A stretch of 53,460 bases of DNA from Treponema sp. GTDB taxonomy: Bacteria > Spirochaetota > Spirochaetia > Treponematales > Breznakiellaceae. Positions 31,555 through 52,622 of this stretch are shown piece by piece; positions within the stretch are counted from its first letter, which is position 1, and each line of letters opens with the position of its first letter. A model generated the notes under the pieces. The model was not told where the DNA came from. It did not search any database and worked only from the letters and a program-made list of their open reading frames with translations. Both the position numbers and the translations under genes were made by a program. The stretch spans positions 1 to 53,460 of the forward strand of contig JAISSH010000039.1 in assembly GCA_031273265.1 (NCBI GenBank), in the 5' to 3' direction.

Positions 31555-32499
31555 TTACCTTTTATCCTGAATGTCGTATAATGCCGTGGAAAGATACCTT
31601 TCCCCCGTATCCGGCAGAACCGTTACGACAATTTTATTTTTATATTCGGGTCTTTTGGCGATCTGCGTTCCGGCAAACGCCGCCGCTCCCGATGAAATCC
31701 CGACCAATAAACCTTCGGAACGAGCCAGCGCCTGCGATGTTTGAAAGGCTTCCTCATTTCTTACCTTGTAAATTTCATCGATAATTCCGGTATTAAGAAC
31801 AGCCGGCACAAACCCCGCCCCGATACCCTGTATCTTGTGAGGGGAAGGAGCGCAGCCGGACAACACCGCCGAATCGTAAGGTTCAACCGCGATTATTTTA
31901 ATGTCCTTGTTTTTGCTTTTCAGGAACTCCCCTACTCCCGTAATCGTACCGCCTGTTCCTACGCCGGAGACAAACGCTGCTACTTCGCCGTCCGTATCCT
32001 TCCATATTTCCTCAGCCGTTGTTGTCCTGTGTATTTCAGGATTTGCCGGATTTTCAAACTGTTGGGGTATGAACGAATTTTCTATCTGCGAAAATAATTC
32101 TTCCGCCTTGCGTATCGCTCCCCTCATGCCGTCCTTGCCGGGCGTAAGAACAAGTTCCGCGCCCAGCGCCTTGAGAAGATTACGCCGCTCAACGCTCATC
32201 GTGTCGGGCATGGTTAAAATTAGCTTGTAACCCTTCGACGCTGCGACAAAAGCAAGCCCTATTCCCGTGTTGCCGCTTGTCGGCTCAATAATAACGGTGT
32301 CCTTGTTTACCTTGCCGCTTTTTTCGGCGGTTTCTATCATGGCGAAAGCTATACGGTCCTTTACGCTGCCCAGAGGGTTAAAATACTCCAGTTTGGCGAC
32401 CAGCCTTCCGCCCAGATTGTTCAGGCGGTTATAGTCGGTTAATTCCAACAGCGGTGTATTGCCAATAAGGTCTGTGAGTTTTGAGGCTATTTTTTTCAT
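31555..32499 (-). CDS. cysK: O-acetylserine sulfhydrylase (cysteine synthase), copy 1
   Basis: [59 protein letters not shown]; likely ATG at 32499 preceded by AGGAG. Confidence 0.95.
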
Positions 32500-32516
32500 A
32501 TCCTGCTCCTTCAATA

Positions 32517-35466: not shown

Positions 35467-35841
35467 ATGGAAACAGTTGCATCAAAAGACGCTCCGGCGG
35501 CTATAGGACCCTATTCTCAGGCGATTATTGAAAATGGTTTTATTTTTACATCGGGGCAAATTCCGCTTTTGCCGGAAACAGGCGAAGTTGCCGTCGGCGG
35601 AATCAAAGAACAGGCGGAACAGGTAATTAAAAATCTGAAAGCGGTATTGACAGCCGCCGGCAGCGACCTTGCCCATGTTGTCAAAACCACCTGTTTTTTA
35701 ACCGATATGGGAGATTTCGCCGCTTTTAACGAAGTTTACTCGGCGCATTTCACCGCAAAACCCGCGCGTTCCTGCGTAGCGGTTCTCGCTCTGCCGAAAG
35801 GCGTAAAGGTCGAGATTGAAGCGGTCGCTGTAAAAGTCTAA
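35467..35841 (+). CDS. ridA: RidA/YjgF-family enamine/imine deaminase
   Basis: PAAIGPYSQAIIENGFIFTSGQIPL; VVKTTCFLTDMGDFAAFNEVY; PARSCVAVLALPKGVKVEIEAVA. Confidence 0.95.
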   Translation: METVASKDAPAAIGPYSQAIIENGFIFTSGQIPLLPETGEVAVGGIKEQAEQVIKNLKAVLTAAGSDLAHVVKTTCFLTDMGDFAAFNEVYSAHFTAKPARSCVAVLALPKGVKVEIEAVAVKV

Positions 35842-36791
35842 ATCATATAGAACCAGTCGTCGCTTTTTTCCAGATCTTTGTGTACGGATTTATCGCCGTT
35901 TTTGTACAAAAGTTCGGGACTTTTTACGCTCACTTTTGTTTTTTCCGGCACGGATTTTATCACGAAGGCGTTGCCGCCGATTACCACATTTTCGCCTATC
36001 ACGGTTTCACCGCCCAGAATTGACGCGCCTGAGTATATCGTTACGTGATCTAAAATTGTGGGATGACGCTTGACGTTTTTCAGCTTCTGCCCGCCGCTTG
36101 TGGACAGCGCGCCCAAGGTAACTCCCTGATAAATTTTCACATAACTGCCTATTACCGTCGTCTCCCCTATTACAATGCCCGTGCCGTGATCCATGAAAAA
36201 GTATTTGCCGATTGAAGCGCCGGGATGAACGTCAATTCCCGTAACGCTGTGCGCGTGTTCGCTCATTATTCTGGGTATGAGAGGAACCTGCAGGAGATAA
36301 AGCTCGTGCGCGAGGCGGTGAATCATGCCTGTATATATTCCGGGATATGAAATAATAATTTCTGACTTGCTGAAAGCGGAAGGGTCGCCTTCGTAAGCCG
36401 CTTCAATGTCGGTATCAAGATACTCCTTTACTACGGGAAGTTTCGACAGAAAATTCAACGCAATAGCGGATGCCTCGCGTTCTATTGTTTCTTGAGGCGC
36501 GCTTTTAAACTGTTCGCTGAAACGTAATGCGAAACTTATCTGCTCCGAAAGACCGGACAAAATTTCTTCCAAAAGTGAGCAAAGCTGATACCTCATCGCG
36601 CGGATACTGAGCTGACTGTCCTCAAAATAGCCGGGAAAAAGCGCGTGCTGTAACTGCGTTATTATCTGCACGATGACGGATTTTACCGGGTGCTTGTAAA
36701 CGCGAAAGATGGACGAATCCCCTCCTGAGCCCGCCATTAAAGAAGAAGCGACCCTCTCTATTTCAGTATCCGCCGAATCCCGTCTTTCCAT
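35838..36791 (-). CDS. cysE: serine O-acetyltransferase (EpsC/CysE type)
   Basis: GIDVHPGASIGKYFFMDHGTGIVIGETTVIGSYVKIYQGVTLGALS hexapeptide repeats; located in the encapsulin operon. Confidence 0.92.
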   Translation of the reverse strand: MERRDSADTEIERVASSLMAGSGGDSSIFRVYKHPVKSVIVQIITQLQHALFPGYFEDSQLSIRAMRYQLCSLLEEILSGLSEQISFALRFSEQFKSAPQETIEREASAIALNFLSKLPVVKEYLDTDIEAAYEGDPSAFSKSEIIISYPGIYTGMIHRLAHELYLLQVPLIPRIMSEHAHSVTGIDVHPGASIGKYFFMDHGTGIVIGETTVIGSYVKIYQGVTLGALSTSGGQKLKNVKRHPTILDHVTIYSGASILGGETVIGENVVIGGNAFVIKSVPEKTKVSVKSPELLYKNGDKSVHKDLEKSDDWFYMI

Positions 36792-38277
36792 AATTCAACC
36801 CCGAACCCGTAAGTTCGCGTAACGCCCTGACAAGCGCATCTACGTCCGCGTAATTGTTGTACAGCGCAAGCGTTGGGCGGACAGTCGCTTCCAGCCCGAA
36901 ATGGCGTAAAATCGGCTGGGCGCAGTGGTGTCCCGCTCTAACCGCGATGCCTTTACTGCTCAAATACTTCCCGATGTCTGGGACGCTGTGTCCGTCAAGA
37001 ACAAACGAAAGGACGCTTGCCTTTTCCGCCGCCGTTCCAATCAGTTTTAATCCTTTTATTTTTGTCAGTTCTTTTGTCGCGTACTGCAAAAGTTCATGCT
37101 CGTAGTGAAAAATATTTTGAAGTCCAATGGAGCTGACATAATCAAGAGCCGCGCCAAGTCCCGCCGCGTCCGCGATGTTGCCTGTTCCCGCCTCAAACTT
37201 TGAAGGAGGAGGATTGTAGATCGTACGCTCAAACGTAACGTCGGCTATCATGTTGCCGCCTCCCTGATAGGGAACTGCCTGTTCCAGCGCGTCAGCTTTT
37301 CCGTATAACGCGCCTATGCCCGTGGGAGCGAAAATTTTATGTCCCGAAAAGACATAAAAGTCCGGATCAAGCGAAGTTACATTTACCGGAATATGCGACA
37401 CAGACTGAGCGCCGTCAATTAAAATTCGCACCCCATGACTGTGCGCGATTTGAACAAGCTCGTAAACAGGCGTGATAGTGCCAAGCGCGTTAGACACATG
37501 AGTCGCCGAGACAAACTTTGTATTCCTGTTAAAGAGTTTTTCGTACTCGCTCATGATAAGCTGTCCGCTTGAGTCAACCGGAACGACGCGGATGAGCGCG
37601 CCGGTTTCCTCGGCGATTAACTGCCATGGCACAATGTTCGCGTGATGTTCAAGGAGGGTCAGAATAATTTCATCGCCGGGGTTAAGAAGCGGCTTAACGT
37701 AGGCGTTAGCCGCAAGATTTATGGCTTCTGTCGTTCCCCTTACAAAGACGATATTTTCCGGCGAAGGAGCGCCGAGGAAATTTGCCGTCGTCTGCCGCGC
37801 GGCTTCGTATGCGTCCGTCGCGCGGGCTGCCAGAGTGTGAGCGCCCCTGTGCACATTGGAATTTTCGTTTTCGTAAAAATAGCTGAGTCTGTCGATTACC
37901 TGCCTCGGTTTCTGCGTGGTAGCGCCGTTGTCAAGCCAGACCAGGTCCTTTCCGTCCACCTTTTGCGACAGAATAGGGAAATCCGCGCGGATAGCCTCAA
38001 TACTCCTGCCGCCGGCAAAGACCTGTCTGGCGTTTTGGGAATCCGCCGCGCTTACCGCGTGGTTTGAGAGGAAGGTGTTTTTCGCCTCGTTATGCGAAAC
38101 CACCGCCGGCGAGAACGCCGGGCGCTCATTGACAAAAGCGTCCTGAACGCCGTCCTGCAGGCTGACAAATTTTCCGGCTTCTCTGTACTCAGGGAAATAC
38201 TCCTGCGCCCAAGAAGCGATCTGCTCCTCGCTCGGCAGTCCTATGGAAGCGGGATTCAACTCACTTGCTGTAATCAT
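36763..38277 (-). CDS. sufS: SufS-type cysteine desulfurase with ~90-aa N-terminal extension (predicted Family 2A encapsulin cargo)
   Basis: Core IEAIRADFPILSQKVDGKDLVWLDNGATTQKP, DGAQSVSHIPV, SGHKIFAPTGIGALYG, catalytic Cys in RAGHHCAQPIL; extension MITASELNPASIGLPSEEQIASWAQEYFPE... Confidence 0.92.
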   Translation of the reverse strand: MITASELNPASIGLPSEEQIASWAQEYFPEYREAGKFVSLQDGVQDAFVNERPAFSPAVVSHNEAKNTFLSNHAVSAADSQNARQVFAGGRSIEAIRADFPILSQKVDGKDLVWLDNGATTQKPRQVIDRLSYFYENENSNVHRGAHTLAARATDAYEAARQTTANFLGAPSPENIVFVRGTTEAINLAANAYVKPLLNPGDEIILTLLEHHANIVPWQLIAEETGALIRVVPVDSSGQLIMSEYEKLFNRNTKFVSATHVSNALGTITPVYELVQIAHSHGVRILIDGAQSVSHIPVNVTSLDPDFYVFSGHKIFAPTGIGALYGKADALEQAVPYQGGGNMIADVTFERTIYNPPPSKFEAGTGNIADAAGLGAALDYVSSIGLQNIFHYEHELLQYATKELTKIKGLKLIGTAAEKASVLSFVLDGHSVPDIGKYLSSKGIAVRAGHHCAQPILRHFGLEATVRPTLALYNNYADVDALVRALRELTGSGLNYGKTGFGGY

Positions 38278-39202
38278 AGTAATCACCGACTTCGACATCT
38301 TCAAGAACGGCTATCGCGTCGTCCGCGAGAATCGCCGCGGAGCAGTACAGGGACAACAGGTAAGAGGCGACTCCTTTTTTATCGATTCCCATGTATTTAA
38401 CAGACAGTCCTCTTGATTGTTCGTTCGGCAGTCCCGCCTGAAAAAGCCCGACTACTCCCCTCTTCGACTCGCCCGTTCTTACAAGCAGAATATTCGTCTT
38501 GCCGCCCTTTCCTTTCGGGTTTTTCAATCCGTCTACAAAAAGTTTATCGCTCGGAACAAGCGGGATTCCTCTCCATGTGATAAAGTTTCCGCCGTAAAGC
38601 GAAGCTGTTACTGGCGGGACTCCCCTCCTTGTACATTCGCGCTCAAAAGCGGCAATCGCCCTTGGGTGAGCCAAAAAGAAAGACGGCTCTTTCCAAACCT
38701 TGCTGATCAGTTCGTCCAGATCGTCCGGCATGGGAGCGCCTTTGCGCGGAGTGATGCGCTGAGAATCGGCGACGTTTTTCAGGAGACCGTAATCGTCGTT
38801 ATTGACGAGCTGGCTTTCCTGCCTTTCCTTCAAACTTTCAATCGCCAACTGAAGCTGTTCCTTTGTCTGATCAAAAGGCGAAGAAAAAACGTCAGATACT
38901 TGCGTGTTAACATTGATGATTGTCGATATCGAATTCAAAATATATTCTCTGGGGGAAGTCTGATAATCGACAAAACCTTCGGGAATATCCGCCGATTTTT
39001 TTTCGGACGAGCAAAGGACATCAAGCGGGGTTTCTCCTTCCACAACCTTGTTGACCCTGTAAATACCGCTTTCAAGACCCTTAAACTCCAAAAAGCGGGT
39101 TATCCACTTGGGCGTTATCGCCGCGAATTGCGGCGCGGTCTTTGTTACATTGGCAAGCTGGTACGCAGCCTGTTTACTTAACGCGTTAATATTGTTTTCC
39201 AT
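38261..39202 (-). CDS. Family 2A encapsulin shell protein (SrpI-like, HK97 fold)
   Basis: AAYQLANVTKTAPQFAAITPKWITRFLEFKGLESGIYRVNKV; KVWKEPSFFLAHPRAIAAFERECTRRGVPPVT; SLYCSAAILADDAIAVLEDVEVGDYYDYSK; no cyclic-nucleotide-binding insertion; overlaps the SufS gene. Confidence 0.9.
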   Translation of the reverse strand: MENNINALSKQAAYQLANVTKTAPQFAAITPKWITRFLEFKGLESGIYRVNKVVEGETPLDVLCSSEKKSADIPEGFVDYQTSPREYILNSISTIINVNTQVSDVFSSPFDQTKEQLQLAIESLKERQESQLVNNDDYGLLKNVADSQRITPRKGAPMPDDLDELISKVWKEPSFFLAHPRAIAAFERECTRRGVPPVTASLYGGNFITWRGIPLVPSDKLFVDGLKNPKGKGGKTNILLVRTGESKRGVVGLFQAGLPNEQSRGLSVKYMGIDKKGVASYLLSLYCSAAILADDAIAVLEDVEVGDYYDYSK

Positions 39203-39222
39203 TCTATTTCCTCCTAAGAAAG

Positions 39223-39239
39223 CATACAATTTATATATG
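39223..39239. promoter_or_regulatory. candidate Rrf2 operator upstream of encapsulin-sufS-cysE
   Basis: CATACAATTTATATATG; reverse-strand -35 TTGACA at 39262-39267. Confidence 0.5.
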
Positions 39240-39393: not shown

Positions 39394-40410
39394 CTAAAAC
39401 AGTGAATCCGGCACGCCCGGTACCGCCACAAAGGTGTCCTTAACCAGAGCGTTCACGTCAACATCGGCGGCAACAATGCCGATCTGCTGTAATTCGCGGG
39501 CGTTGCGGTCAAGCGCTACCTGCGCATGGCTTACCGAAGCCCGGTAATTGTAGGTCTTGAGCACTTTGGCGTTAGTCGCAACTTCACCGGCAATGTACTT
39601 TTGTTCGGTGATGATTCGGGCGGTCTCGTCGGGATTTTCCTGCACCCACTTGGAAGCCTTCTGCAAAGCCCGCAGGAATTTGGCTACCGCCTCGGGATGA
39701 TCCTTTACGGTCTGGGAACGTACCGGCGCGACACAGCAGAATTCGTCTTTAAGGTTGTTGTCGGTGGCGTTGTTGATTATCACCCGGATATTGCCTTCGG
39801 CTTCGATAATTGAGGCGGTGGGATCTCCAACACCGATGGCGTCAACAAAGCCTCTTTCCAACGCCAGAGGAAGTTCAGCCGAAGGGAAGATAAGCCACTC
39901 CACATCGGCATTGGCGCCGTCCGGTTTAAGTCCAAGACTTGCAAGCACGCGGGAAGGAATCACCTTGGTGCTGGCATTGAGGCTGGATACGCCTATCTTT
40001 TTCCCCTTGAGATCAGCTGGAGTCCTGATACCCGAATTAGCCTTGGTCAACACCTTGACGCATCCTGTGTGAATCGCCAGCGGTATCTTGACATCAAGAC
40101 CGTTCGCGATAGGTTGAATCAGCGTTGCCAGCAAATTGTTGGTAACGTCGATGCTTCCGGTGGTCAGGTGATTCATCGCGGTTCCCGGATCCATTTTGAA
40201 GACCTTGTAATTAAGTCCTTCGGCTTCAAACAGTTTGTGCTCAATGGCGATATAGAAAGGCGCTTCACAGAGTCCGCCTTCAACCGGCAGTCCGATAGTC
40301 AGGACAAAATCCTTATCGGACACTTTTTTGTCCCCGCTTCCTCCTGCCCAGACCGCCGTCAATACGGCGCAGGCAAGCAGTAAACCCAAGAAATGTTTTT
40401 TCATATACAT
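39394..40410 (-). CDS. ABC transporter substrate-binding protein (NMT1/SsuA/TauA-like)
   Basis: Signal peptide; EAPFYIAIEHKLFEAEGLNYKVF; TPADLKGKKIGV; adjacent ATPase and permease. Confidence 0.87.
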   Translation of the reverse strand: MYMKKHFLGLLLACAVLTAVWAGGSGDKKVSDKDFVLTIGLPVEGGLCEAPFYIAIEHKLFEAEGLNYKVFKMDPGTAMNHLTTGSIDVTNNLLATLIQPIANGLDVKIPLAIHTGCVKVLTKANSGIRTPADLKGKKIGVSSLNASTKVIPSRVLASLGLKPDGANADVEWLIFPSAELPLALERGFVDAIGVGDPTASIIEAEGNIRVIINNATDNNLKDEFCCVAPVRSQTVKDHPEAVAKFLRALQKASKWVQENPDETARIITEQKYIAGEVATNAKVLKTYNYRASVSHAQVALDRNARELQQIGIVAADVDVNALVKDTFVAVPGVPDSLF

Positions 40411-40451: not shown

Positions 40452-41243
40452 TTACAAATAATATTGCAATTCCTCGCGATTTCCGGCGAAGTGTAAAATT
40501 TTCAGTATCTTCGCCCTCATCGCCAAGAATTCAGGATCATCCCGCTGTCTTGGACGACTCATTTCCACATTGATCACCTTCTCTATTTTCGCGGGACGGG
40601 CGGACATAACCACGATCTGAGTTGCCATGTAGATCGCCTCATCGACATCGTGGGTTACCATCACCGTTGTCATTCCGCGCTTTTCCCAAATTTTAAGAAT
40701 CTCGTCCTGCATATTCATGCGGGTAAACGCGTCCAACGCGCCCAGCGGCTCGTCGAGTAACAGCACCTTGGGATTATTTACAAGGGCGCGCGCAAGACTT
40801 GCTCTTTGCGCCATACCGCCAGACAATTGATGGGGATAGGATTTTTCAAAACCCTCAAGTCCGACGAGTTTAATGAATTCGGGAATGCTCTCCTTTTCTT
40901 CACGGTACACTTTACGCGCCCGCAGTCCGAAAGCGATGTTTTCATACACGGTCTTCCAAGGGAACAGAGTCGGGTCCTGAAACACAAGTCCCCGTTCATA
41001 TCCGGGAGAAGTAATTTTCTCGCCGTCCAGTTCAATGATTCCGTTGTTAGGCAGGATAAGTCCCGCTATGAGCCTGAGCAATGTTGACTTACCGCACCCC
41101 GACGGACCGATGAGAGAAATAAATTTGCCGCTTGTAAAATCAAAATCTATGTTGTTCAACGCGACTACTTCGCCGCCGTCCGGCTGGGGAAAAGTTTTCC
41201 TCACCCTTTGAATCGAAATGTTTCCTTCATTCGCCATTTCCAT
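40452..41243 (-). CDS. ABC transporter ATP-binding protein (SsuB/TauB-like)
   Basis: LIGPSGCGKSTLLRLIAGL; LSGGMAQRASLARALVNNPKVLLLDEPLGALDAFTR. Confidence 0.95.
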   Translation of the reverse strand: MEMANEGNISIQRVRKTFPQPDGGEVVALNNIDFDFTSGKFISLIGPSGCGKSTLLRLIAGLILPNNGIIELDGEKITSPGYERGLVFQDPTLFPWKTVYENIAFGLRARKVYREEKESIPEFIKLVGLEGFEKSYPHQLSGGMAQRASLARALVNNPKVLLLDEPLGALDAFTRMNMQDEILKIWEKRGMTTVMVTHDVDEAIYMATQIVVMSARPAKIEKVINVEMSRPRQRDDPEFLAMRAKILKILHFAGNREELQYYL

Positions 41244-41246
41244 TAT

Positions 41247-42242
41247 TCACCACCTTATAGTTCCCTTTTGCCATGCCAGCACTTTGTTGCGTATCTTGAA
41301 CTGCATCGTTATGAGAAATGAAAAAGTTACCGCTATGACAATTAACGCCGCGTACACGTTCGGGTACGCCAGAGTCTCTCTCTGCCAGTTGATGTACCAG
41401 CCGATTCCGAATTTGCAGCCGATCATCTCCGCCGCCATGAGGGTAAGGAAACAAGCCGAAGTGCCGTTGAAAAGCCCGGCGAACACGTTGGGCGCGGCTC
41501 CCGGCAGGGCTATGGAAAGAATGTTCCGCAGAGTGCTTGCTCCCAGAGTGCTTGAAACTTCAAAGTAGCTTTTCTGCACGTTGATGATTCCTGAACTGGT
41601 CAACACTGTTGTTGGAAACCAGACGCCAAGAGCAATGAGGAAGAGACTCGCGTCTGTTGGCTTGAGAAAAATCACCAGCGCGATTGGTATCCATGCTGTT
41701 GAGGGAATGGGTCCCACGATGCGGATAAACGGCATGATCCAGTAGTTCCAGCGCTGGCTCCAGCCTATGACGGTTCCTGTAAGCACTCCGACAAACGCTC
41801 CAAGAAAAAAACCGCCTAATAAAAGCCGCAGCGAATACGCGAGGCATTGCAGCAAGAACAGCCAGTCGTTGACAAAAACGCCGATGATCCGTTCCGGCGC
41901 CGGGAAGTAGAGGCTGGGAACCAGATTCCATTTAATTGTGATGAGGTTGTACAGCCCTAAAATAAGGAAACCAACTCCCAAAAACGGAGATTTGAAAATC
42001 AGCTTCCTGCGCAAACCGGCGTTAAACACTCCCGCTATAAAAAGAACCGTGAAAACAGCGATAAGGAGTACGAGAAAACGTGAAAACCATGGCAGTACTT
42101 TTGGACGGTACGCCGAATGGGTTGGAATCAGTATATGAAGGGCAATAACTACACCCAATGCCGCTATCGGAATAAAGGTTCGCCAGTTGAATAAAAACCG
42201 CGGCTCTGCGGCTTCGCCATTTTTTATTAATAAATCTGACAT
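41247..42242 (-). CDS. ABC transporter permease (SsuC/TauC-like)
   Basis: Multi-TM; SSTLGASTLRNILSIALPGAAPNVFAGL EAA-like loop; probable start MSDLLIKNGEAAEP at 42242. Confidence 0.9.
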   Translation of the reverse strand: MSDLLIKNGEAAEPRFLFNWRTFIPIAALGVVIALHILIPTHSAYRPKVLPWFSRFLVLLIAVFTVLFIAGVFNAGLRRKLIFKSPFLGVGFLILGLYNLITIKWNLVPSLYFPAPERIIGVFVNDWLFLLQCLAYSLRLLLGGFFLGAFVGVLTGTVIGWSQRWNYWIMPFIRIVGPIPSTAWIPIALVIFLKPTDASLFLIALGVWFPTTVLTSSGIINVQKSYFEVSSTLGASTLRNILSIALPGAAPNVFAGLFNGTSACFLTLMAAEMIGCKFGIGWYINWQRETLAYPNVYAALIVIAVTFSFLITMQFKIRNKVLAWQKGTIRW

Positions 42243-42252
42243 AATGTTCTCC

Positions 42253-43767
42253 TTACTCCTTGATATACGTGAATGGGTCTTTGTCGTACCATTCTTTTTT
42301 GTACGGCAGTTCAGTATTCTCCGCGAGATTTTTGTTGAACTGATTGTTGCGTATAACACGCGCAAGACGCCTTACAATTTCAAAAACGCCTGAATATCCC
42401 ATGTAGTTATAAGCCGGTCCGAATAACGGAAATATTGGCAGTCCGTGTTTTGCCGCGATATTGTTGCCGCCGACATGAGTAATTAAAATATCCGGCTTAA
42501 GGCGCTTAACAAGGTTCGCCTGCTCAAACGGCTGGTTAGTCGCTACGTCAATAACCACGTCGTCTATATTTTCAAGCGCCTCGAATATCGGTTCAATAAA
42601 CTGATCAAAATGGTGCGCCTTAAAACCGACAACTTCCATCCCAAGGTCCTGAATTATTTCCGCAGTCGCGATAATCCGCACTTCTCCTCCCGCCAAAAAT
42701 ACCTTCTTGCCCTTAAACACATTGCGGTATTTGTCGATGCTTGCTTCGAGAATCCTGTTTTCTTCCGCGATAAACCTCTGCGCTTCCTTTTCAAGACCGA
42801 AGTTTTCCGCTATTTTCAATACCCAGCGATCGGTGTTTTTTCTGCCGATAGGGATTGTGTCTATAACGAAGGGAATGTCGTACTTTGTCTTTAGATGTTC
42901 CACAAAATAGTCATCGTGGGTTCCGCAGATGCTTACATTAAGCGAAGTTTCAAGCGCGTACTGAAAATCATCAGGCTCTGCGTAACAGGGAATAAAGCGC
43001 ACGTTAAGCCCGATGCCAGTAAGTATTCTCTGTAGTTCCAGTTCATCAGGTCTGCTCATCGAACCCACGTTAAAAATATTCACGTTACGCGATATTCTGT
43101 ACTGTCTTTCCATTTCATCAAGATCGCGCTCTACGATAAATTCCTCACGTTCCGGCAAACGCACGAATTTTTTCAAAATACCGTGATAAACGGCGTCGTA
43201 AGCCGTCGCCATTACCTTTGTTTTGAATCCTTCGCAGTGAATGGGTACAATAACCGCCGCGACCTGTTCCTGCAGATCGTTGAGTATATTGTCAACGTCG
43301 TCGCCGATTAGAGCCGGAACGCACCCGTTAGTTACGATTATTGTTTCCGGTCTGAACTCTTTGTCCGCGAACAGAACCGCTTCGCGCAGTTTTTTCTCGC
43401 CGCCGCCGATTACGTCAGCTTCGTCAAGATTAGTGCTTATCCAGATAGAGCCTTCCGCTAACGGATCGCGAAGCTGTTTTAACGTTTTGTTTACGCCGAT
43501 ATTTCCCATACTACTGATTCCGCAGCCGACAGGACCGTGCTTGATGATCACCGCCTTGCGAATCGAGTTCAACATACCAAGACTCAAATTGAACTGGCAG
43601 CCGTGAGTCTGCGAAAAACTTCTGCTTGAAAGGTTAAGGCATCCGTCTTTGCCGAAACAGCCGTTTTTAAGACAGCTTTTCATCTTTCCCGAAGTGCCGC
43701 CAAAAGCCGTGTTTGTTTTGTGCCGGTCTTCCCTTCCCGGAACCGAAATTGCGTCTAAATAGTTCAT
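42253..43767 (-). CDS. nitrogenase component 1-like protein, NifD-like subunit
   Basis: P-cluster-type cysteines C57 (THGCQFN), C82 (HGPVGCGI), C149 (TNGCVPALIGDD); LNVSICGTHDDYFVEHLKTKYDIPFV resembles the NifD Cys275 region. Confidence 0.88.
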   Translation of the reverse strand: MNYLDAISVPGREDRHKTNTAFGGTSGKMKSCLKNGCFGKDGCLNLSSRSFSQTHGCQFNLSLGMLNSIRKAVIIKHGPVGCGISSMGNIGVNKTLKQLRDPLAEGSIWISTNLDEADVIGGGEKKLREAVLFADKEFRPETIIVTNGCVPALIGDDVDNILNDLQEQVAAVIVPIHCEGFKTKVMATAYDAVYHGILKKFVRLPEREEFIVERDLDEMERQYRISRNVNIFNVGSMSRPDELELQRILTGIGLNVRFIPCYAEPDDFQYALETSLNVSICGTHDDYFVEHLKTKYDIPFVIDTIPIGRKNTDRWVLKIAENFGLEKEAQRFIAEENRILEASIDKYRNVFKGKKVFLAGGEVRIIATAEIIQDLGMEVVGFKAHHFDQFIEPIFEALENIDDVVIDVATNQPFEQANLVKRLKPDILITHVGGNNIAAKHGLPIFPLFGPAYNYMGYSGVFEIVRRLARVIRNNQFNKNLAENTELPYKKEWYDKDPFTYIKE

Positions 43768-43777
43768 AATTCTCTCC

Positions 43778-45118
43778 CTACCTTCCCGCGACCAAAGCGG
43801 TAAAAATATCTTCTGTTAAACTAAGTCCGCCGTTAATTCCGGCATACGCCCTGTTAAGCACTACCCTGTTCGTTATCGGATATGTCGCCGTTACCAGCGG
43901 CAGATTAAATTCGGCGGACAGATCCCTTTCGTACGCGCTTCCTACAATTACAGCCGGCGACATCGAGTCGTAGTAACGCTCACTGCGGTTACGCTGCCAA
44001 ACTTCGGCGATATATTTTTTAATTGAAGACGTGTTCGTGTCGAATTTAACGTTCGCTTTTAAGCCGGACTTCATGCCGCCAAGAGACAATATAATTTTTT
44101 CTTTTATGTCTTCTTCGGGTAAATCGTTTATTACCGTAAGTTCCGGCAGCCAGCCAAGCTCATCTGACAGAAATTCCGTAATCGCGGGAGCGTAGTTGCA
44201 GTCGCCGATTACAATGGCGTACCTTTGCAGATCGATGTCGTTGTAAATATCCGCGAGACGTTCAACATAGTTGTAGTACGTTTTTTTCTCATCATTTATT
44301 ACCGCGTCCGTTAGCTGTTTGCCGCTGTTTAACTTTTCCGAAACTTTCCTTAAAAAGTCCTCCGTAGCGTGCGCGCCGATTGGCAATTTTGTCGTTAAAA
44401 AGGGAATATCGTGAACTTCCTCAAATACGCGCGCCGTACCCGCTCCGTAAACTTCGGATAAAACGATATTCAGCGAAGCGTTGCCTGCGTTTTTAATATC
44501 ATCAAGCGTCTCTCCTTCGCCGAAGAACGTGTTGACTTCCAGCCCAAGTCTGGCAAGAAGGCGTTTAATTTCTTTCAGATTGCCCTTCCAAAATACGTCA
44601 AGCGCGGGAACAATGCCTAAAATATTTACTTTGTTTGCGATCTTTTCTTTTTGTTTCGTTATATATTTTCTTGTTAAACCGTTTAATACAAGTTCATAGC
44701 CTATGAATGAATTCCCCTTAAAACTTGGCGTATGCACGGGAATTACAGGTTTGTCTTCTTTGATAAAATCCGAAACAACGGCGTCAAGATCGTCGCCTAT
44801 CATCTCTACCATACAGCCTGTCACAACGACATAAATATCGCCGTCCATTACCTCAAGCGTGGTTTTTATCTGTTCCCTTAAACGTTCCTCGCCGCCGAAT
44901 ACGACATCGCGCTCCACAACATTACTGCTCGGAAGCGAATTGCCTCCGCAGTAACCGCCGCCGAGGTAGCCGCCGCCGGAGTTATTGGCAATGTGCAGAT
45001 TCTGACCGCATCCCGCGGACGCGTGTATAACAGGTATGGCTCGCGGTATCGCCCTTAATACGGCAAGCGCTCCTCCAAGAGCGCAGGAATACCGCGGTCT
45101 ATCAATAAAATCACTCAT
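43778..45118 (-). CDS. nitrogenase component 1-like protein, NifK-like subunit
   Basis: RYSCALGGA, HASAGCGQN and VTGCMVEMIGDD cysteines as in nitrogenase component 1; likely ATG at 45118 with GGAGGAAGGA upstream. Confidence 0.87.
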   Translation of the reverse strand: MSDFIDRPRYSCALGGALAVLRAIPRAIPVIHASAGCGQNLHIANNSGGGYLGGGYCGGNSLPSSNVVERDVVFGGEERLREQIKTTLEVMDGDIYVVVTGCMVEMIGDDLDAVVSDFIKEDKPVIPVHTPSFKGNSFIGYELVLNGLTRKYITKQKEKIANKVNILGIVPALDVFWKGNLKEIKRLLARLGLEVNTFFGEGETLDDIKNAGNASLNIVLSEVYGAGTARVFEEVHDIPFLTTKLPIGAHATEDFLRKVSEKLNSGKQLTDAVINDEKKTYYNYVERLADIYNDIDLQRYAIVIGDCNYAPAITEFLSDELGWLPELTVINDLPEEDIKEKIILSLGGMKSGLKANVKFDTNTSSIKKYIAEVWQRNRSERYYDSMSPAVIVGSAYERDLSAEFNLPLVTATYPITNRVVLNRAYAGINGGLSLTEDIFTALVAGR

Positions 45119-45347: not shown

Positions 45348-45782
45348 TTGAAAGTATCGACAAAGGGCAGATACGCCCTAAGAATGCTGCTGGATCTGGC
45401 GGAACACAAAGGCGACGGGTTTATATCCCTAAAAGAAATAGCCGAAAGGCAGAATATATCAAAACAGTATCTGGAACAGATTGTTTCCCTTTTGAACACC
45501 TCTAATATCCTTCGTACAAACCGCGGAAAACAGGGCGGGTATATGCTGGCGAAAGAGCCTTCGGAATACAATGTCAGGGATATTCTGCGTATTACTGAGG
45601 GCAATCTTGCGCCCGTAACCTGTCTTGAGGAAGAAGTAAACACCTGCGAAAAGGTCGCGACCTGTAAAACCATAGCGTTGTGGAAAGGGCTTAACGATGT
45701 CATTTCAGAGTACCTAAGCGGCGTTACATTGAAGGATATGCTTGAACAAGCCGGTGAAAATGTTGATAACTGGGTAATTTGA
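45348..45782 (+). CDS. Rrf2-family transcriptional regulator (IscR/CymR-like)
   Basis: MKVSTKGRYALRMLLDLAEHKGDGFISLKEIAERQNISKQYLEQIVSLLNTSNILRTNRGKQGGYML; CLEEEVNTCEKVATC; TTG start at 45348. Confidence 0.94.
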   Translation: MKVSTKGRYALRMLLDLAEHKGDGFISLKEIAERQNISKQYLEQIVSLLNTSNILRTNRGKQGGYMLAKEPSEYNVRDILRITEGNLAPVTCLEEEVNTCEKVATCKTIALWKGLNDVISEYLSGVTLKDMLEQAGENVDNWVI

Positions 45783-45882: not shown

Positions 45883-46806
45883 ATGGCGCGTGTGGATAAA
45901 ATTACCGACCTCATCGGTAATACGCCGATTGTAAAGCTCAACAAAATCAATGAAGGAGGGGCGGTTGTTTACGTAAAACTTGAAAGTTTCAACCCCCTGC
46001 ACAGCGTAAAGGACCGCATTGCTCTTGCGATGATCGAGGCTGCCGAAAAAGACGGCAAGATAAAAAAAGGCACGGTGATTATCGAGCCTACAAGCGGCAA
46101 TACCGGCATCGGGCTGGCGTATGTCGCGGCGGTCAAAGGTTACAGGATAATCCTGACCATGCCGGAAACGATGAGCATTGAAAGGCGCAAACTTTTGAAA
46201 GCGCTCGGCGCGGAACTTGAGCTTACCGAAGGAGCGAAGGGAATGAAAGGGGCAATCGCCAAAGCCGAAGAGCTTGCCGCGATAACTCCCAATTCTTTCA
46301 TACCCCAGCAGTTCAACAACCCGTCAAACCCCAAAATTCACGAAGAGACCACAGGTCCTGAAATCTGGAACGACACCGAAGGAAAGATCGATATTCTTAT
46401 CGGCGGAGTCGGGACAGGCGGAACTCTTAGCGGAGCGGGCAAGTACCTGAAGGCGAAAAAATCTTCGGTAAAGGTAATCGCGGTCGAGCCGTCCGCGTCG
46501 CCGGTACTTTCCGGCGGTTCGCCCGGACCGCACAAGATTCAGGGAATCGGCGCGGGTTTCCAGCCCGCGATTTACGACCCTTCGGTAATCGATGAAATTT
46601 ACCAGACCGATGACGTTAAATCAGGAACGGCGGCAAGACTGCTTGCGAGGGAAGAAGGAATCCTTGTCGGCATTTCATCAGGCGCGGCTCTTGAAGCGGC
46701 GCTGACCGTTTCCAAACGTCCCGAAAACAAGGGCAAAACCATAGTAACGGTTCTGCCGGATACGGGCGAGCGTTATCTGTCAACATGGCTCTGGGAACAG
46801 GAATAA
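45883..46806 (+). CDS. cysK: O-acetylserine sulfhydrylase (cysteine synthase), copy 2
   Basis: [60 protein letters not shown]. Confidence 0.95.
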
Positions 46807-46868
46807 GCGGGATATTATCTTCGTTTGTTTCTGTATAAATTTTTATTTTAATTTTTTTGGAGGAAAAA

Positions 46869-47678
46869 ATGAAAAAAACTGTTTTAAGCCTGTTTATTGC
46901 GGGCGTATTGATTTTTGCTGTTAACGGCGCCGCTCACGCGAAGGGCAACTCACAGCAATCCGGTTCGGTTCTTTCGGTGGGAGCTACTCCAGTTCCCCAC
47001 GCGGAACTGCTAAATCTTATCAAGGACGATCTTGCATCGCAGGGCATTACGCTGAAAGTGGTGGAGTTCACCGACTATGTACAGCCCAATGTGGCGGTGA
47101 TAAGCGGAGACCTTGACGCCAACTTCTTCCAGCATATTCCCTATCTGGATTCCAATGATGAATGGTCTGCCAAACTTGTTTCGGCTTTCGGCGTACATGT
47201 GGAGCCTTTCGGAGTTTATTCGTCAAAGCACAAGGACATTAGCGCTCTTCCAAACGGGGCATCCATCGCCATTCCCAATGATCCGTCCAACGGAGGCAGG
47301 GCGCTTCTTCTGCTCCAGTCCAAAGGGCTAATCACTCTCAGGCAGGGAGCCGGGCTTACCGCCACAGTCCGCGACATTACGGGCAACCCCAAAAACTTCC
47401 GCTTTCAGGAACTTGAAGCCGCTCTGCTTCCCCGCTCCCTGCGTGATGTAGACGCCGCCGCAATCAACGGCAACTACGCTCTTGAGGCGGGCTTTAACCC
47501 GATAAAAGATTCTCTTATAATTGAAGGAGCGGAATCCCCGTATGTAAACATAGTGGTCGTACTGAAAGGAAAAGAAAACGATCCCAATATCACCGCCCTT
47601 AAAAACGCGCTCTTAAGTAAAAAAGTAAAAGATTATATTGAAAGCCGCTACGACGGCGGCGTTGTCGCCGTTTTCTAA
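46869..47678 (+). CDS. metQ: MetQ-like methionine-type substrate-binding protein (NlpA family)
   Basis: SVGATPVPHAELL; FFQHIPYLD; AIPNDPSNGGRALLLLQSKGLITL; AINGNYALEAGF. Confidence 0.92.
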   Translation: MKKTVLSLFIAGVLIFAVNGAAHAKGNSQQSGSVLSVGATPVPHAELLNLIKDDLASQGITLKVVEFTDYVQPNVAVISGDLDANFFQHIPYLDSNDEWSAKLVSAFGVHVEPFGVYSSKHKDISALPNGASIAIPNDPSNGGRALLLLQSKGLITLRQGAGLTATVRDITGNPKNFRFQELEAALLPRSLRDVDAAAINGNYALEAGFNPIKDSLIIEGAESPYVNIVVVLKGKENDPNITALKNALLSKKVKDYIESRYDGGVVAVF

Positions 47679-47749: not shown

Positions 47750-49840
47750 TTATTTTTTATATCCCCATTGGTACTTGCCCGATTTGTCGTCAATAACAAG
47801 AATAAGTGTCCCTGCCTTGCCGTTATAAACCTTGTCAAAAGGAATATAATCGCTGCCTGTTGTAATTTCAGAATCTAGACCGGTTTCTTCATCGAAAACT
47901 ATCTTACCGGTATGTTGAATAAAATCTTCTATTCCAATCATATCAAAATAAGTACCCATCATAAACCCGACTGCAATTTTCCCGATTGTAACATTGTTAC
48001 CAATGGTTACACTTCTGATTTTGTGATTGCCGCTTGTTATCCCGTCGCCGATAAAAACATTGTCAGGAATGGTAATACTGTTTATTCCACTGCATAGTAC
48101 ACCCTGATATATTTTGGTAACAGGAAGTCCGCGAATTTGCGAAGGAATTTTTAGCTCTTTTCCTTTCCCTTTGTAATCACTCACTATTATCGACTTGATA
48201 TCGTCGGAATAAAGCACCATTAAATCCCCTTCAGCGCTTTCGTTATCTGCAAATGCCTCTTTCCCGATATTCTCAATACTGCCTTGAATGTCTATGCTTG
48301 AGATAGCGTTATCATAAAACGCTTTTTCCCCGACGCTTGCGATATTACCTTTAACGGTTAAGCCTGTAAGTCCGCTTTGACAAAACGCCTGTTCTCCTAT
48401 GCTCGTAACGCTTGAGGGAATAATTATTCCGGCGGCGAGATTGCACCGCCTGAATACTTTTGACCCGATAGAAGTAATGCCGCCGCCGAGCGTTACGCTT
48501 TCGAGTTTTCGACATTCTTCAAAAGCCGAATCTCCTATGCTCGTAACGCTGTCAGGAATGGCGACAGAAGCGAGGTAACTTTTCATAAAAGCCTTGTTCC
48601 CGATACTTGTAACTCCGGCGGGAATACTTATGCTTTCGATTTTGTTTTCAGCAAATGCCTCGTCTCCTATAAATGTAACGCTGTCGGGAACAATTACGTT
48701 TATTGTGTCTTTTTTATAAAACGCCTTTGCCGCAATTCCTGTAACAGGCAGTCCGTTTATAAGCAGAGGTATCTTTAAATTCTTCATCCATTTTGAAACT
48801 TTGTAACCGGTAATAATAACCGACTTGCCGTCTTGTGATTCAATTATTTCGTAATCGTTTTCGGCTTTACCTTTAATCAACACAGACCCGTCTGCTTTGA
48901 GAACACCGGCGTCTCCAAACGCCCCTTCTCCAAAACTTTTAAGGCTGTCAGGAACGGTTACGATGGTGAGGTTGTTGTTTTGAAACGCTTCTTTCCCGAT
49001 AGTTTTAAGACCCGCCGGAATGTTTATCTCGGCGATCTGATTGTTACGGAATGCCCTGTCTCCTATACTTGCAACGCTGTCAGGAATATTTATCTCGGTG
49101 ATTTTATTGTCGCTAAACGCGTCGGCTTCAATGCAGGTAACGCTGCCGGGAATTGTTACGGAAGCAAGTTGATTTTGTGTAAAGGCAGAATCCTTAATAC
49201 TCGTTATGCCGTCAGGAATAGTTACGCTTGTTAGCTGATTTTCCTCAAACGCGTATTCACCGATACTGGTAACACTGCCGGGAATGGTTATATTATCAAG
49301 TTTGTTTTTCGCAAACGCCGACTTACCTATGCTCGTAACACTGTTGGGAATGTCGATAGAGGCAAGCTGGTTTCCCTCAAACGCCGATTCTCCGATACTC
49401 GCGACGCCTTTGCCTAAACTTGCGCTTGTTAGCTGATTTTTCGCAAACGCCATATCTTCGATACTTGTAACGCTGTCGGGAATGGTTACGCCGGTGAGTT
49501 TTTTATCACGAAACGCCCTTCTCCCGATTACGGTAACGGGCATTCCGTTCATCTGCGCGGGGATTTGTATAATCGTATCATTTCCCTTATATCCGTTAAT
49601 TTTAACCGAATTGCCGTTTATAACTTCTATGCTCCAATCCCCTTCTTCTTTTTTCTCGCCGCTTTGTTGAATTGCACCTGACGACTGCATGGCAAGTCCC
49701 TGTCTGATATTTTCCCAGTAAGATGGATCTCCGGCGTTAGGCGCTTTTGTAAACGCATCCATAATTGTCTGCTGCATATTAGCCGGATAAACGGTAGCTA
49801 TCAGTTCCCCCACTGCTTTTTTCGCCTGTTCCAAGTCCAT
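47750..49840 (-). CDS. BspA-like leucine-rich repeat (LRR_5) protein
   Basis: Many tandem VTIPDSVTSIGDSAFxxNQL-type repeats; no obvious signal peptide. Confidence 0.92.
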   Translation of the reverse strand: MDLEQAKKAVGELIATVYPANMQQTIMDAFTKAPNAGDPSYWENIRQGLAMQSSGAIQQSGEKKEEGDWSIEVINGNSVKINGYKGNDTIIQIPAQMNGMPVTVIGRRAFRDKKLTGVTIPDSVTSIEDMAFAKNQLTSASLGKGVASIGESAFEGNQLASIDIPNSVTSIGKSAFAKNKLDNITIPGSVTSIGEYAFEENQLTSVTIPDGITSIKDSAFTQNQLASVTIPGSVTCIEADAFSDNKITEINIPDSVASIGDRAFRNNQIAEINIPAGLKTIGKEAFQNNNLTIVTVPDSLKSFGEGAFGDAGVLKADGSVLIKGKAENDYEIIESQDGKSVIITGYKVSKWMKNLKIPLLINGLPVTGIAAKAFYKKDTINVIVPDSVTFIGDEAFAENKIESISIPAGVTSIGNKAFMKSYLASVAIPDSVTSIGDSAFEECRKLESVTLGGGITSIGSKVFRRCNLAAGIIIPSSVTSIGEQAFCQSGLTGLTVKGNIASVGEKAFYDNAISSIDIQGSIENIGKEAFADNESAEGDLMVLYSDDIKSIIVSDYKGKGKELKIPSQIRGLPVTKIYQGVLCSGINSITIPDNVFIGDGITSGNHKIRSVTIGNNVTIGKIAVGFMMGTYFDMIGIEDFIQHTGKIVFDEETGLDSEITTGSDYIPFDKVYNGKAGTLILVIDDKSGKYQWGYKK

Positions 49841-49853
49841 GTTTTATCTCCTT

Positions 49854-51005
49854 TTAATAAATCGGCATACTATTGTCTACTTCTCTCGCCCATGCGTTAA
49901 GTCCGTCCTGCAGATTCAACAACCGTCCCGTGTAGCCAACTTCTTCAAGCGCCCTGATTCCCAAGATGCTCCTCTGCCCTATTTTGCAAAGAAACACCGC
50001 GTCAATTTCAGGATTTAACTCGTCTTTTCTGCGCTGAAGCTGACCCAACGGCATGACAATCGCGCCGGGGAATTTTACAATTGCTCTTTCATGCGGTTCG
50101 CGTATGTCGATAAGTTGAATTTTGTCGCCTTTATCAAGACGCGCTTTTAAATCTGTCGCGGTAATTGTTTCAATCGGCTTTTCGTCGTTTTTCTTTTTAA
50201 GACCGCAGAATTCCTCGTAATCAATTAATTCTTTGATTGATGGGTCTTTTCCGCAGACAGGACAAGCAGGCTCTTTGGAAAGTTTCAGCTCACGGAACTT
50301 CATGCGCCATGCGTCAAAAATTAAAAGCCGCCCGACCAGCGAATTACCGCCGCCGACAATGAGCTTTATCACTTCGTTTGCCTGTATCGTCCCCACGATG
50401 CCGGGAAGAACTCCCATTACGCCTCCTTCGGCGCAGGACGGAACAAGTCCGGGCGGCGGCGGAGAGGGGTAAAGACAGCGGTAGCACGGTCCCTCTTTCG
50501 CGTAAAAAATGCTCGACTGCCCTTCGAATTGAAAAATGGAGCCGTACACGTTCGGCTTTCCCAAAAAGACGCACGCGTCGTTTACAAGATAGCGCGTTTG
50601 GTAGTTGTCGGTTCCGTCCGCTACAATGTCATAATCGGCGATTATATCCATCGCGTTCTTGCTTGTAAGCGCTTCGTTATGTGTAATGATATTTATGTAC
50701 GGATTGATGCTTTTCATTCTGTCTTTCGCGGACGCGACTTTCGGTCTTCCCACGTCTTTTGTCCCGTGAATGATCTGACGCTGAAGATTCGATTCGTCTA
50801 CAAAATCAAAATCGACAATGCCGATTGTCCCGATTCCGGCGGCGGACAGGTACAGCGCAAGAGGAGCGCCGAGACCGCCAGTGCCGACAATCAACACTTT
50901 CGCGGCTTTCAGCTTTTTCTGCCCCTCAATGCCGATTTCCGGCAGTAAAAGATGACGGCTGTAACGCGCTATTTCCTCATTGGTCAGATCCGCCAATTCG
51001 CTCAT
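49854..51005 (-). CDS. moeZ: ThiF/MoeB-type sulfur-carrier adenylyltransferase with C-terminal rhodanese domain (MoeZ-like)
   Basis: IARYSRHLLLPEIGIEGQKKLKAAKVLIVGTGGLGAPLALYL; DGTDNYQTRYLVNDAC; zinc Cys pairs; rhodanese IDIREPHERAIVKFPGA ... FLCKIGQRS. Confidence 0.93.
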   Translation of the reverse strand: MSELADLTNEEIARYSRHLLLPEIGIEGQKKLKAAKVLIVGTGGLGAPLALYLSAAGIGTIGIVDFDFVDESNLQRQIIHGTKDVGRPKVASAKDRMKSINPYINIITHNEALTSKNAMDIIADYDIVADGTDNYQTRYLVNDACVFLGKPNVYGSIFQFEGQSSIFYAKEGPCYRCLYPSPPPPGLVPSCAEGGVMGVLPGIVGTIQANEVIKLIVGGGNSLVGRLLIFDAWRMKFRELKLSKEPACPVCGKDPSIKELIDYEEFCGLKKKNDEKPIETITATDLKARLDKGDKIQLIDIREPHERAIVKFPGAIVMPLGQLQRRKDELNPEIDAVFLCKIGQRSILGIRALEEVGYTGRLLNLQDGLNAWAREVDNSMPIY

Positions 51006-51283
51006 CGCAATCCCCCAGCGATTGCCGGTACAAGCATGACGGAATCCCCGTCTTTTACGGGAGTCGCCAATCCGTTAAGTTCCTTGATATTCGTGTCCCC
51101 AATAAAAACGTTTATAAAATCGCGTAAAGTGTCGTCGTCTTTGTACAGATGTTTGCAAATGTCCGGGTGTTTCGCCGCCAAATCCGCGATAGCCTCTCCT
51201 GCTGTTCCGCCCGAAACTTCAATTTCCGCCTGTCTTTCCGTGTAGGCTCGCAACGCCGCCGGAACCAATATTGAAACTGCCAT
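51002..51283 (-). CDS. cysO: MoaD/ThiS/CysO-like sulfur carrier protein ending AGGLR
   Basis: Ubiquitin-like MoaD-type protein; FINVFIGDTNIKELNGLATPVKDGDSVMLVPAIAGGLR; between a JAMM protease and MoeZ. Confidence 0.88.
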   Translation of the reverse strand: MAVSILVPAALRAYTERQAEIEVSGGTAGEAIADLAAKHPDICKHLYKDDDTLRDFINVFIGDTNIKELNGLATPVKDGDSVMLVPAIAGGLR

Positions 51284-51285
51284 AG

Positions 51286-51720
51286 TTAATCTCCTTCGTT
51301 TATTATAACATCTTCTTCGATAAATGCCGACCTGTCGTCCTTCAAAATCCAGCTTGTAAAATCTCTCGCTTTTCCCTTTTCCACAGCGGTAATTATGTAC
51401 GAATAAAACGGCAGAGCGTGTTCCCTGTCAAAATCGGACGGTTTCGCGGGGTGATCGGGGTGTGAGTGATAAAAACCAAGAACGTCAAGTTTAAGAGAAC
51501 GTGCTTTTTTTTCCGCGTCAAGCATATTTTCAGGCGTAATTAAAAAACGGTGGTACTGTTCGCCCTCAGAGAATTCGTTTGATATGGGCAAAATTTGAGT
51601 GATAGACTTTTCCTCGCTTTCACCTAACGTCCCAAGCAAAACACCGCAACACTCGTTGGGATAAGCCTTCTCTCCTTCGGACTTTATTTCGTCTTGCAAA
51701 GATTTTGTTATATTCAGCAT
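51286..51720 (-). CDS. mec: JAMM/MPN+ metalloprotease (Mec-like)
   Basis: NECCGVLLGT; GFYHSHPDHPAKPSDFDREHA; ATGA overlap with cysM. Confidence 0.9.
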   Translation of the reverse strand: MLNITKSLQDEIKSEGEKAYPNECCGVLLGTLGESEEKSITQILPISNEFSEGEQYHRFLITPENMLDAEKKARSLKLDVLGFYHSHPDHPAKPSDFDREHALPFYSYIITAVEKGKARDFTSWILKDDRSAFIEEDVIINEGD

Positions 51721-52622
51721 CAAACACCTTCCAGAACCGGCTCCGACATATAACGGTAACCGCCGTCGCATAAAATGGTAACAACGACAGAACCCTCAGG
51801 CAGTTTTTCCGCGATTCTCACCGCGGCGAGTACGTTCGCTCCGGCGCTTACGCCGACAAACAGACCTTCTTCCCTCGCAAGACGGCGCGTCATCTCATAC
51901 GCCTCTTCCGTTCCTATTTCGGTCCGACTATCAATTATGCTTTCGTCAAAAAAGCCGGGCTTTATTGTCGTCTCCATGTGCTTCATGCCTTCAAGACCGT
52001 GAAAAGGCGAATCGGGCTGCATGAAAATCGCCTTTATATTCTTGTTATGCGATTTAAGACGTTTTGTTATTCCCATAAAACTTCCCGAAGTGCCCGCTCC
52101 CGCGACAAAGTGCGTAACGGCGTTATTTGTCTGTTCAAGGATTTCAACGCCTGTCGTTTCGTAGTGAGCCTTCCAGTTGTTGTCGTTGTTGTACTGATCG
52201 GGATAAAAGTATTTTTCAGGACTCTGTGCAACAAGTTTCTGCACCGCGTGATATGCGCCGTCTGAACTTTCAAGAGGGTCTGTGTCGATAATCTGCGCTC
52301 CGTAAGCGCGGAGAATTTTCTTGCGCTCAAAACTGGCGTTCGCCGGCATGCAAAGCGTTACGCGATAACCCAACGCCGCCCCTATCATGGCGTAGGCGAT
52401 GCCTGTATTTCCGCTTGTTGCGTCGATTATAATTTTATCCTTTGTAAGCTTTCCGCTTTTAATTCCGTCAAGGATCATCGCCTTCGCCGCCCTGTCTTTT
52501 ACAGAGCCGCTCGGATTAAAATACTCGGCTTTCGCAAGCACCTGAACCCCGTTAAGAGAGCGCGTGATATTTTTCAAGGCGATTAAAGGAGTGTTTCCAA
52601 CCGTATCAATGATGTTATTCAT
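51720..52622 (-). CDS. cysM: PLP-dependent cysteine synthase (CysM-like)
   Basis: IIDTVGNTPLIALKNI; NPSGSVKDRAAKAMI; DATSGNTGIAYAMIGAALGY; GAGTSGSFMGITKRLK. Confidence 0.93.
   Translation of the reverse strand: MNNIIDTVGNTPLIALKNITRSLNGVQVLAKAEYFNPSGSVKDRAAKAMILDGIKSGKLTKDKIIIDATSGNTGIAYAMIGAALGYRVTLCMPANASFERKKILRAYGAQIIDTDPLESSDGAYHAVQKLVAQSPEKYFYPDQYNNDNNWKAHYETTGVEILEQTNNAVTHFVAGAGTSGSFMGITKRLKSHNKNIKAIFMQPDSPFHGLEGMKHMETTIKPGFFDESIIDSRTEIGTEEAYEMTRRLAREEGLFVGVSAGANVLAAVRIAEKLPEGSVVVTILCDGGYRYMSEPVLEGV

Follow-up and report, generated by a model that had tools for sequence, protein, structure and literature searches.

A nitrogenase-like K-D gene pair of a Treponema genome as a candidate C–S bond reductase linked to cysteine synthesis

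The K-D gene pair and its predicted cluster ligands

The window analysed here is contig C42 (JAISSH010000039.1; 53,460 nucleotides) of a spirochaete genome, Treponema sp. assembly GCA_031273265.1, which comprises 2.0 Mb in 136 contigs and is an estimated 87% complete. On its minus strand, the window carries two genes for nitrogenase-like subunits, the NifK-like subunit K (446 residues; positions 43778–45118) and the NifD-like subunit D (504 residues; positions 42253–43767). The window also carries core genes including recA, and the nearest named relatives of its genome are Treponema metagenome-assembled genomes, which are presumably of termite-gut origin. The K and D reading frames are intact and separated by a 10 bp gap. 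The PF00148 profile spans the whole domain in both proteins, with 249.6 bits for D (E = 6.7e-74) and 245.1 bits for K (E = 1.5e-72) against a cut-off of 28.6 bits. Because of these E values, the intact frames and the close spacing, the pair is not a chance match, and D and K are assigned to component 1 of the nitrogenase superfamily (PF00148).

The best solved relatives of D and K are the MarD (PDB 9d9u and 9fmg) and MarK (E = 1.2e-79) subunits of methylthio-alkane reductase (Mar). The six P-cluster-type cysteines reported in a preliminary description of this DNA are all present in the alignment, at Cys57, Cys82 and Cys149 of D and Cys12, Cys37 and Cys102 of K. The alignment likewise upheld two further observations of that description: D contains an equivalent of NifD Cys275 (Cys281), and its segment at the NifD His442 position, FPLFGPAYNYMGYSG (NYMGYSG), has no histidine when aligned to MarD. 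The proposal of a cofactor without histidine ligation, however, did not hold. His431 of D, in the motif ILITHVGG, aligns with MarD His429 in the motif IIIRHNG of Loop I. In the cryo-EM structure of Mar, His429 in an extended Loop I is the Fe8 ligand, a second cofactor ligand that was overlooked by earlier sequence work (PMC12552129). The [Fe8S9C] ligands of D are predicted to be Cys281 and His431, in the manner of Mar. The arginine beside the Mar histidine, Arg428, has been proposed as a Mar hallmark (PMC12552129). Loop I of D keeps the histidine but, being one residue shorter, has no equivalent of this arginine.

Single-chain AlphaFold models of D and K, with mean predicted local distance difference test (pLDDT) values of 88.1 and 88.6, respectively, were compared with solved folds by template-modelling (TM) score. 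The best matches in the PDB are MarD for D (9fmg_A; TM 0.83/0.89) and MarK for K (9fmg_B; TM 0.92/0.92), so that Mar is the closest solved relative of both subunits by sequence and by fold. The likeness to MarHDK/MarB of Rhodospirillum rubrum also covers the six P-cluster cysteines, the cofactor ligands (Cys281 and His431 for Mar Cys270 and His429), His386 (Mar His375), a NifB-type maturase and a group IV NflH. At two other positions, D differs from both Mar and NifD: Met186 and Tyr190 replace Mar Trp195 and Phe199, which are kept in 20/20 members of the Mar clade, and NifD Gln191 and His195.

Phylogeny and marker residues of clade W

The window pair belongs to a monophyletic set of CysK-linked group IV D/K proteins, termed clade W, that is defined by Cys281-x-x-His284, His431 and no Loop I arginine in D and by Cys57 in K. 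In a tree of 54 D sequences (IQ-TREE, LG+C20), window-type D proteins form one starred clade of 33 rows with a support of 98/92. The Arg-His type, including R. rubrum MarD, forms a separate starred clade (100/100), and D proteins without the Loop I histidine form a third (100/99). In this third clade (L078:13038, L080, L161:8977 and L162–L169), all the cysteines are kept, the Loop I histidine is lost by deletion and His386 is mostly replaced by threonine. Two sequences resembling isethionate reductase (Isr), the other characterised relative with a sulfur substrate, are a possible sister of clade W (83/84, unstarred). Placement of the window subclade inside the Mar clade was rejected by the approximately unbiased test (p-AU 0.00098). 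It is the only placement rejected; an arrangement with clade W and Mar as sisters without Isr was not (p-AU 0.143). The preliminary suggestion of a clade distinct from Mar is supported: the window type forms a clade of its own.

Residue conservation was counted over 91 clade members. As Cys281 and His284 were the criteria for inclusion, the counts for these two residues hold by construction. His431, Cys82, Cys149 and Tyr190 are kept in 91/91 members, Cys57 in 90/91 and Cys43 of D in 88/91. Cys57 of K is found in 80 of the 84 paired K subunits; its position is occupied by glycine in R. rubrum MarK and by other residues elsewhere in the Mar clade. In the alignment, D His284 and K Cys57 are the clade's own marks, and together with D Cys43, the K-D gene order and the CysK partner they distinguish the clade from Mar. 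The variability of position 186 inside the clade (Met, Trp, Val or Gln) suggests that its members differ in substrate.

D is 82% identical to the D protein of a congener, with all ligands kept, and D homologues occur in 101 of 294 genomes of the same order. Among the best 80 of 568 loci, which were kept from the named-genome scan, are Spirochaetota, Bacillota (Paenibacillus, Ruminiclostridium, Acetivibrio and Clostridium), Geobacterales and bins labelled Synergistaceae, Planctomycetaceae, Adiutrix and Deltaproteobacteria. Members of the clade come from at least five phyla, and a genome often encodes several nitrogenase-like pairs. The genome of Clostridium sp. LS (G302; locus L097), with 28 PF00148 matches, the most among 15 genomes checked, has a large expansion of such pairs. 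Two bins labelled Bacillota and Clostridiaceae (L091 and L092) encode D proteins with 73–74% identity that lie close to the treponeme subclade, reflecting either recent horizontal transfer or a binning error.

Gene neighbourhood and sulfur assimilation background

D is followed on the minus strand by six genes with gaps of at most 164 bp. The first three encode an ABC importer: a NitT/TauT-type permease (41247–42242; PF00528, with weak ntrB, SaoP and SsuC matches), whose ATG start lies 10 bp past D; a NitT/TauT-type ATPase (40452–41243; sub-cut-off NCBIfam matches of the SaoA/ntrCD/TauB type); and a substrate-binding protein (SBP) of the NMT1/SsuA superfamily (39394–40410; PF09084). The solved relatives of the SBP are all remote. 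The earlier designation of the importer as sulfonate-type was not borne out, as the SBP falls below the cut-offs of both the SsuA-family profile (TIGR01728; 128 bits, cut-off 163.5) and the SaoX profile. The next three genes encode a family 2A encapsulin shell protein (38261–39229; NF041162, 499 bits, cut-off 380), a SufS-type encapsulin-cargo cysteine desulfurase (36763–38304; NF041166, 780 bits, cut-off 800; TIGR01979, 531 bits, cut-off 475) and a CysE-type serine O-acetyltransferase (SAT; 35838–36791; TIGR01172, 160.7 bits, cut-off 210.65; NF041874, 150.1 bits, cut-off 150) that ends in isoleucine (DWFYMI).

Further along the minus strand lie genes for the cysteine synthase CysK (31555–32514; TIGR01139, 452.8 bits), a NifB radical-SAM core without the NifX domain (30672–31553) and a NifX-like cofactor carrier (30264–30644; PF02579, 71.3 bits). 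NifB matches TIGR01290 over the radical-SAM part (E = 1.2e-75), under the full-length cut-off, and contains the motifs CNIQCKFC, AGPGD and CRHCRADA. CysK has 76–89% identity, and NifB 58–69%, to the operon-encoded proteins of close relatives, and this CysK is assigned as the counterpart of their operon CysK. A hybrid histidine kinase gene with GAF-like and receiver regions (32636–35359, minus strand) separates the CysK/NifB genes from the end of the operon that carries SAT.

On the other side, a CymR/IscR-like Rrf2-family regulator (45348–45782, plus strand; TIGR00738, 129 bits, above cut-off; CymR, 120 bits versus 195) is divergent from K and probably regulates the locus. It is followed on the plus strand by a second CysK (45883–46806; TIGR01139, 451 bits) and a MetQ-family substrate-binding lipoprotein (46857–47678; MetQ model, 197 bits, sub-cut-off). 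All three cysK/M genes of the genome are on the window contig. A BspA-type leucine-rich-repeat protein gene (47750–49840, minus strand) separates two groups of cysteine genes; PMC13067680 likewise describes leucine-rich-repeat proteins in the P. corrugata operon that contains nifK, nifD and a cysteine synthase gene. The second group (49854–52622, minus strand) is a compact set encoding CysM, a JAB protease, a ThiS-like carrier (51002–51283; 93 residues, C-terminus AIAGGLR) and a MoeZ-like ThiF/rhodanese protein. Located near the CysK-based set, it resembles a pathway of the CysO/Mec type, in which cysteine is made via a sulfur-carrier protein.

A scan of the window with PF00142 and PF00148 revealed no NifH-type or NifEN gene, as previously noted, and D and K are its sole PF00148 matches; the other hits to these profiles lie elsewhere in the genome. 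Contig C28 carries nifD, nifK, nifE and a NifN-NifB fusion gene. Contigs C34 and C56 (L081 and L082) each end in an NflH fragment of the matching type. The two nflH copies are near-identical over ∼420 bp, and the assembly was probably interrupted by this repeated gene. One copy is divergent from a further SBP-ATPase-permease gene set that may encode a second importer. The label of an orphan pair, given in the preliminary description, fits this contig only, because NifB and NifX are encoded in the window at 30.3–31.6 kb, the nif set and NflH are found elsewhere in the genome and relatives have a complete operon.

The commonest gene order in close relatives is perm-ATPase-SBP-CysK-NifB-K-D-H. 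Across the 91 clade loci, which include related and hence non-independent loci, the same-strand run with D contains CysK at 57, importer genes at 44, NifB at 33 and H at 29; these counts are minima because contigs are often short. Among the 48 loci with at least 5 kb on each side, 39 have CysK within 7 kb, against an expectation by chance of ∼2–3% from the three cysK/M genes in the 2.0 Mb window genome. No GlnB/NifI gene was found at any of the 91 loci. Encapsulin and SAT genes again lie close to the system in another treponeme genus (L052) and in an Oryzomonas bin (L137). An MtaA-type methyltransferase, a corrinoid protein and its activase are associated with one subclade, in agreement with the published link of group IV-A to type I mlp clusters (PMC10418091).

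Profile searches for sulfite reductase (PF01077) and PAPS/APS reductase (PF01507) gave no match in the window genome or in its congeners G279 (100% complete) and G213. PF01077 is absent from 24 of the 36 genomes of the family in which group-IV D/K genes occur, and where sulfite reductase exists, it lies on a different contig from the clade-W genes or far from them. Two Isr-like clusters (L071 and L079) have sulfite reductase within about 10 kb, whereas the clade-W clusters of the same genomes do not. This contrast would fit sulfite as the product of Isr and sulfide for CysK in clade W. In these Isr-like H-D-K clusters (L071 of G043 and L079 of G016), D lacks the equivalents of Cys57, Cys149 and Cys281, and PAPS-reductase-family genes are also near.

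Proposed function and alternative explanations

The importer, CysK, SAT, encapsulated SufS and conserved CysK-K-D operons support the preliminary proposal of a role in sulfur metabolism rather than N2 fixation. Both of the characterised relatives that use sulfur substrates, Mar and Isr, attack C–S bonds (PMC12552129, PMC11423573). We consider it likely that the K-D pair cleaves C–S bonds of an imported organosulfur compound and feeds cysteine synthesis; on the best reading of the sequences, it would be an [Fe8S9C] C–S bond reductase whose sulfur, probably as sulfide, reaches CysK. K and D would form a D2K2 nitrogenase-like catalytic component, which would receive its L-cluster from NifB and NifX, with no need for NifEN, Mo or homocitrate. 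Electrons would be delivered via the P-cluster by an NflH dimer with ATP. A small organosulfur compound would enter through the NitT/TauT-type importer, and its C–S bond would be reductively broken. The sulfur would be released as sulfide or, less likely, as a thiol, and CysK would join the sulfide to O-acetylserine from SAT. Surplus sulfur could be stored by SufS in the encapsulin.

Several points weigh against this C–S reductase function. The proposed role is drawn from sequence, predicted fold and gene context. NflH is encoded outside the window on other, broken contigs, and the operon is split, with the window CysK and NifB ∼10 kb away from K-D. Gene absences are provisional because the genome is 87% complete. 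Several clade-W genomes do carry sulfite reductase elsewhere, so a sulfide product is not forced. In addition, the group IV-A enzyme of Endomicrobium proavitum, which may belong to clade W, is reported to support 15N2 incorporation (PMC9147875, citing Zheng et al.), and N2 reduction is possible on L-clusters bound to NifB or NifEN (PMC13245594).

These last observations underlie the main rival, in which the pair would be a group IV-A nitrogenase that needs no NifEN and reduces N2 on the L-cluster; we regard this as unlikely. Clade W and the group IV-A/Nfa proteins are probably the same group, as indicated by Paenibacillus kin and cluster context. Like the proteins of E. proavitum, Paenibacillus and Heliophilum (NflDK1), the window type keeps the Cys275 equivalent, has lost His442 and has no NifEN, and both groups are linked to corrinoid methyltransferase clusters (PMC10418091). 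According to PMC9147875, E. proavitum and Heliophilum are thought to depend on group IV-A genes for diazotrophy, these genes are the sole nif-like genes of E. proavitum and their carriers include P. riograndensis; Paenibacillus is also included in clade W. A difference from clade W is that N2 fixation is claimed for E. proavitum. The window genome and most others checked, however, already have high-scoring canonical nif components, and no clade locus has a nifI/GlnB gene. Met186 and Tyr190 occupy the NifD Gln191 and His195 positions, the conserved partner is CysK, and N2 is not a substrate of Mar, whose cluster is the same (PMC12552129). D and K do not qualify as a canonical Mo, V or Fe nitrogenase (NifDK, VnfDK or AnfDK), as the His442 equivalent is missing and the profile scores lie well under the curated cut-offs (nifD, 155.9 bits, cut-off 653.55; nifK, 119.8 bits, cut-off 427.3).

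A strict Mar function, in which methyl thioethers such as dimethyl sulfide or 2-methylthioethanol would yield a hydrocarbon and methanethiol, the latter destined for methionine, is similarly improbable. Its appeal lies in Mar being the nearest solved relative of both subunits, in the identical P-cluster and Cys/His cofactor ligands, in the nearby MetQ-family gene and in the subclade tied to MtaA-type methyltransferase and corrinoid proteins. The rejected Mar-clade placement, the shorter Loop I without the Arg428 hallmark, the exchange of Trp195/Phe199 for Met186/Tyr190 and the partnership with CysK instead of O-acetylhomoserine sulfhydrylase speak against it.

An Isr-like sulfonate reductase, which would free sulfite from an imported sulfonate such as isethionate, has little probability. 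The 'major membrane protein I' gene beside isrBHDK of Rhodobacter capsulatus presumably encodes an SrpI-type encapsulin. Together with that gene, isrBHDK adjoins a tauABC importer, sufS2 and serine acetyltransferase, much the same set as in the window, and has an assimilatory sulfur role (PMC11423573); the possible sister relationship of Isr-like sequences to clade W points the same way. IsrB, however, is BciD-like rather than NifB-like, and IsrD keeps only the Cys88 equivalent, lacking those of Cys62, Cys154 and Cys275 (PMC11423573), whereas the window has NifB and all the D cysteines. Identity with Isr was rejected on these cysteines and the maturase type. Furthermore, sulfite reductase, which adjoins the Isr-like loci of this set, is absent from the window genome and the complete congener, and the SBP scores under the SsuA-family cut-off.

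A role as a NifEN-like assembly scaffold, or as a relic, for the genome's canonical nitrogenase, although suggested by NifE/NifD-type similarity, the canonical nif genes and the broken-up local operon, is very improbable given that the genome has its own nifE and nifN-nifB fusion, the K-D genes are intact with D 82% identical to that of a congener and all ligands kept, and the relatives' operon carries CysK and an importer, not nifDKEN.

Beyond the window pair, a broader proposal is advanced tentatively. Clade W may comprise separate, widespread 'reductive desulfurases' in which importer-fed organosulfur compounds are converted to sulfide for an operon-encoded CysK, bypassing sulfite and sulfite reductase, on an L-cluster held by Cys281 and His431 without the Mar arginine, with the D His284/K Cys57 pair and with paralogues adapted to different substrates. 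That the group is linked to cysteine synthase was recorded in 2012, 2023 and 2026, so the group is known but uncharacterised. Dos Santos et al. (2012) described Cys275-bearing nitrogenase-like pairs with cysteine synthase or O-acetylhomoserine sulfhydrylase (PMC3464626), and a 2026 paper on pillotinaceous spirochaetes described nifK, nifD and cysteine synthase in one P. corrugata operon (PMC13067680); both suggested a role in sulfur metabolism. The accessible parts of these two papers do not contain the Loop I histidine ligand, the clade residues, the Mar/Isr boundary or the missing sulfite reductase. As far as the literature searched shows, the Loop I histidine in the clade, the loss of the Mar arginine, the clade-specific residues, the statistical split from Mar, the operon counts and the sulfite reductase contrast are new.

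Mar and Isr are so far the two characterised nitrogenase-like enzymes acting on sulfur compounds, and surveys of nifH and nifD can score clade W as nitrogen fixation. The predicted Cys281/His431 ligation without the arginine is directly testable. If the C–S reductase function is correct, gut and soil bacteria would possess an anaerobic route from organosulfur compounds to cysteine without sulfite reductase. It would also be directly relevant to the question of N2 fixation by group IV-A enzymes and to the way in which the protein surrounding a single L-cluster selects between N2 and C–S bonds.

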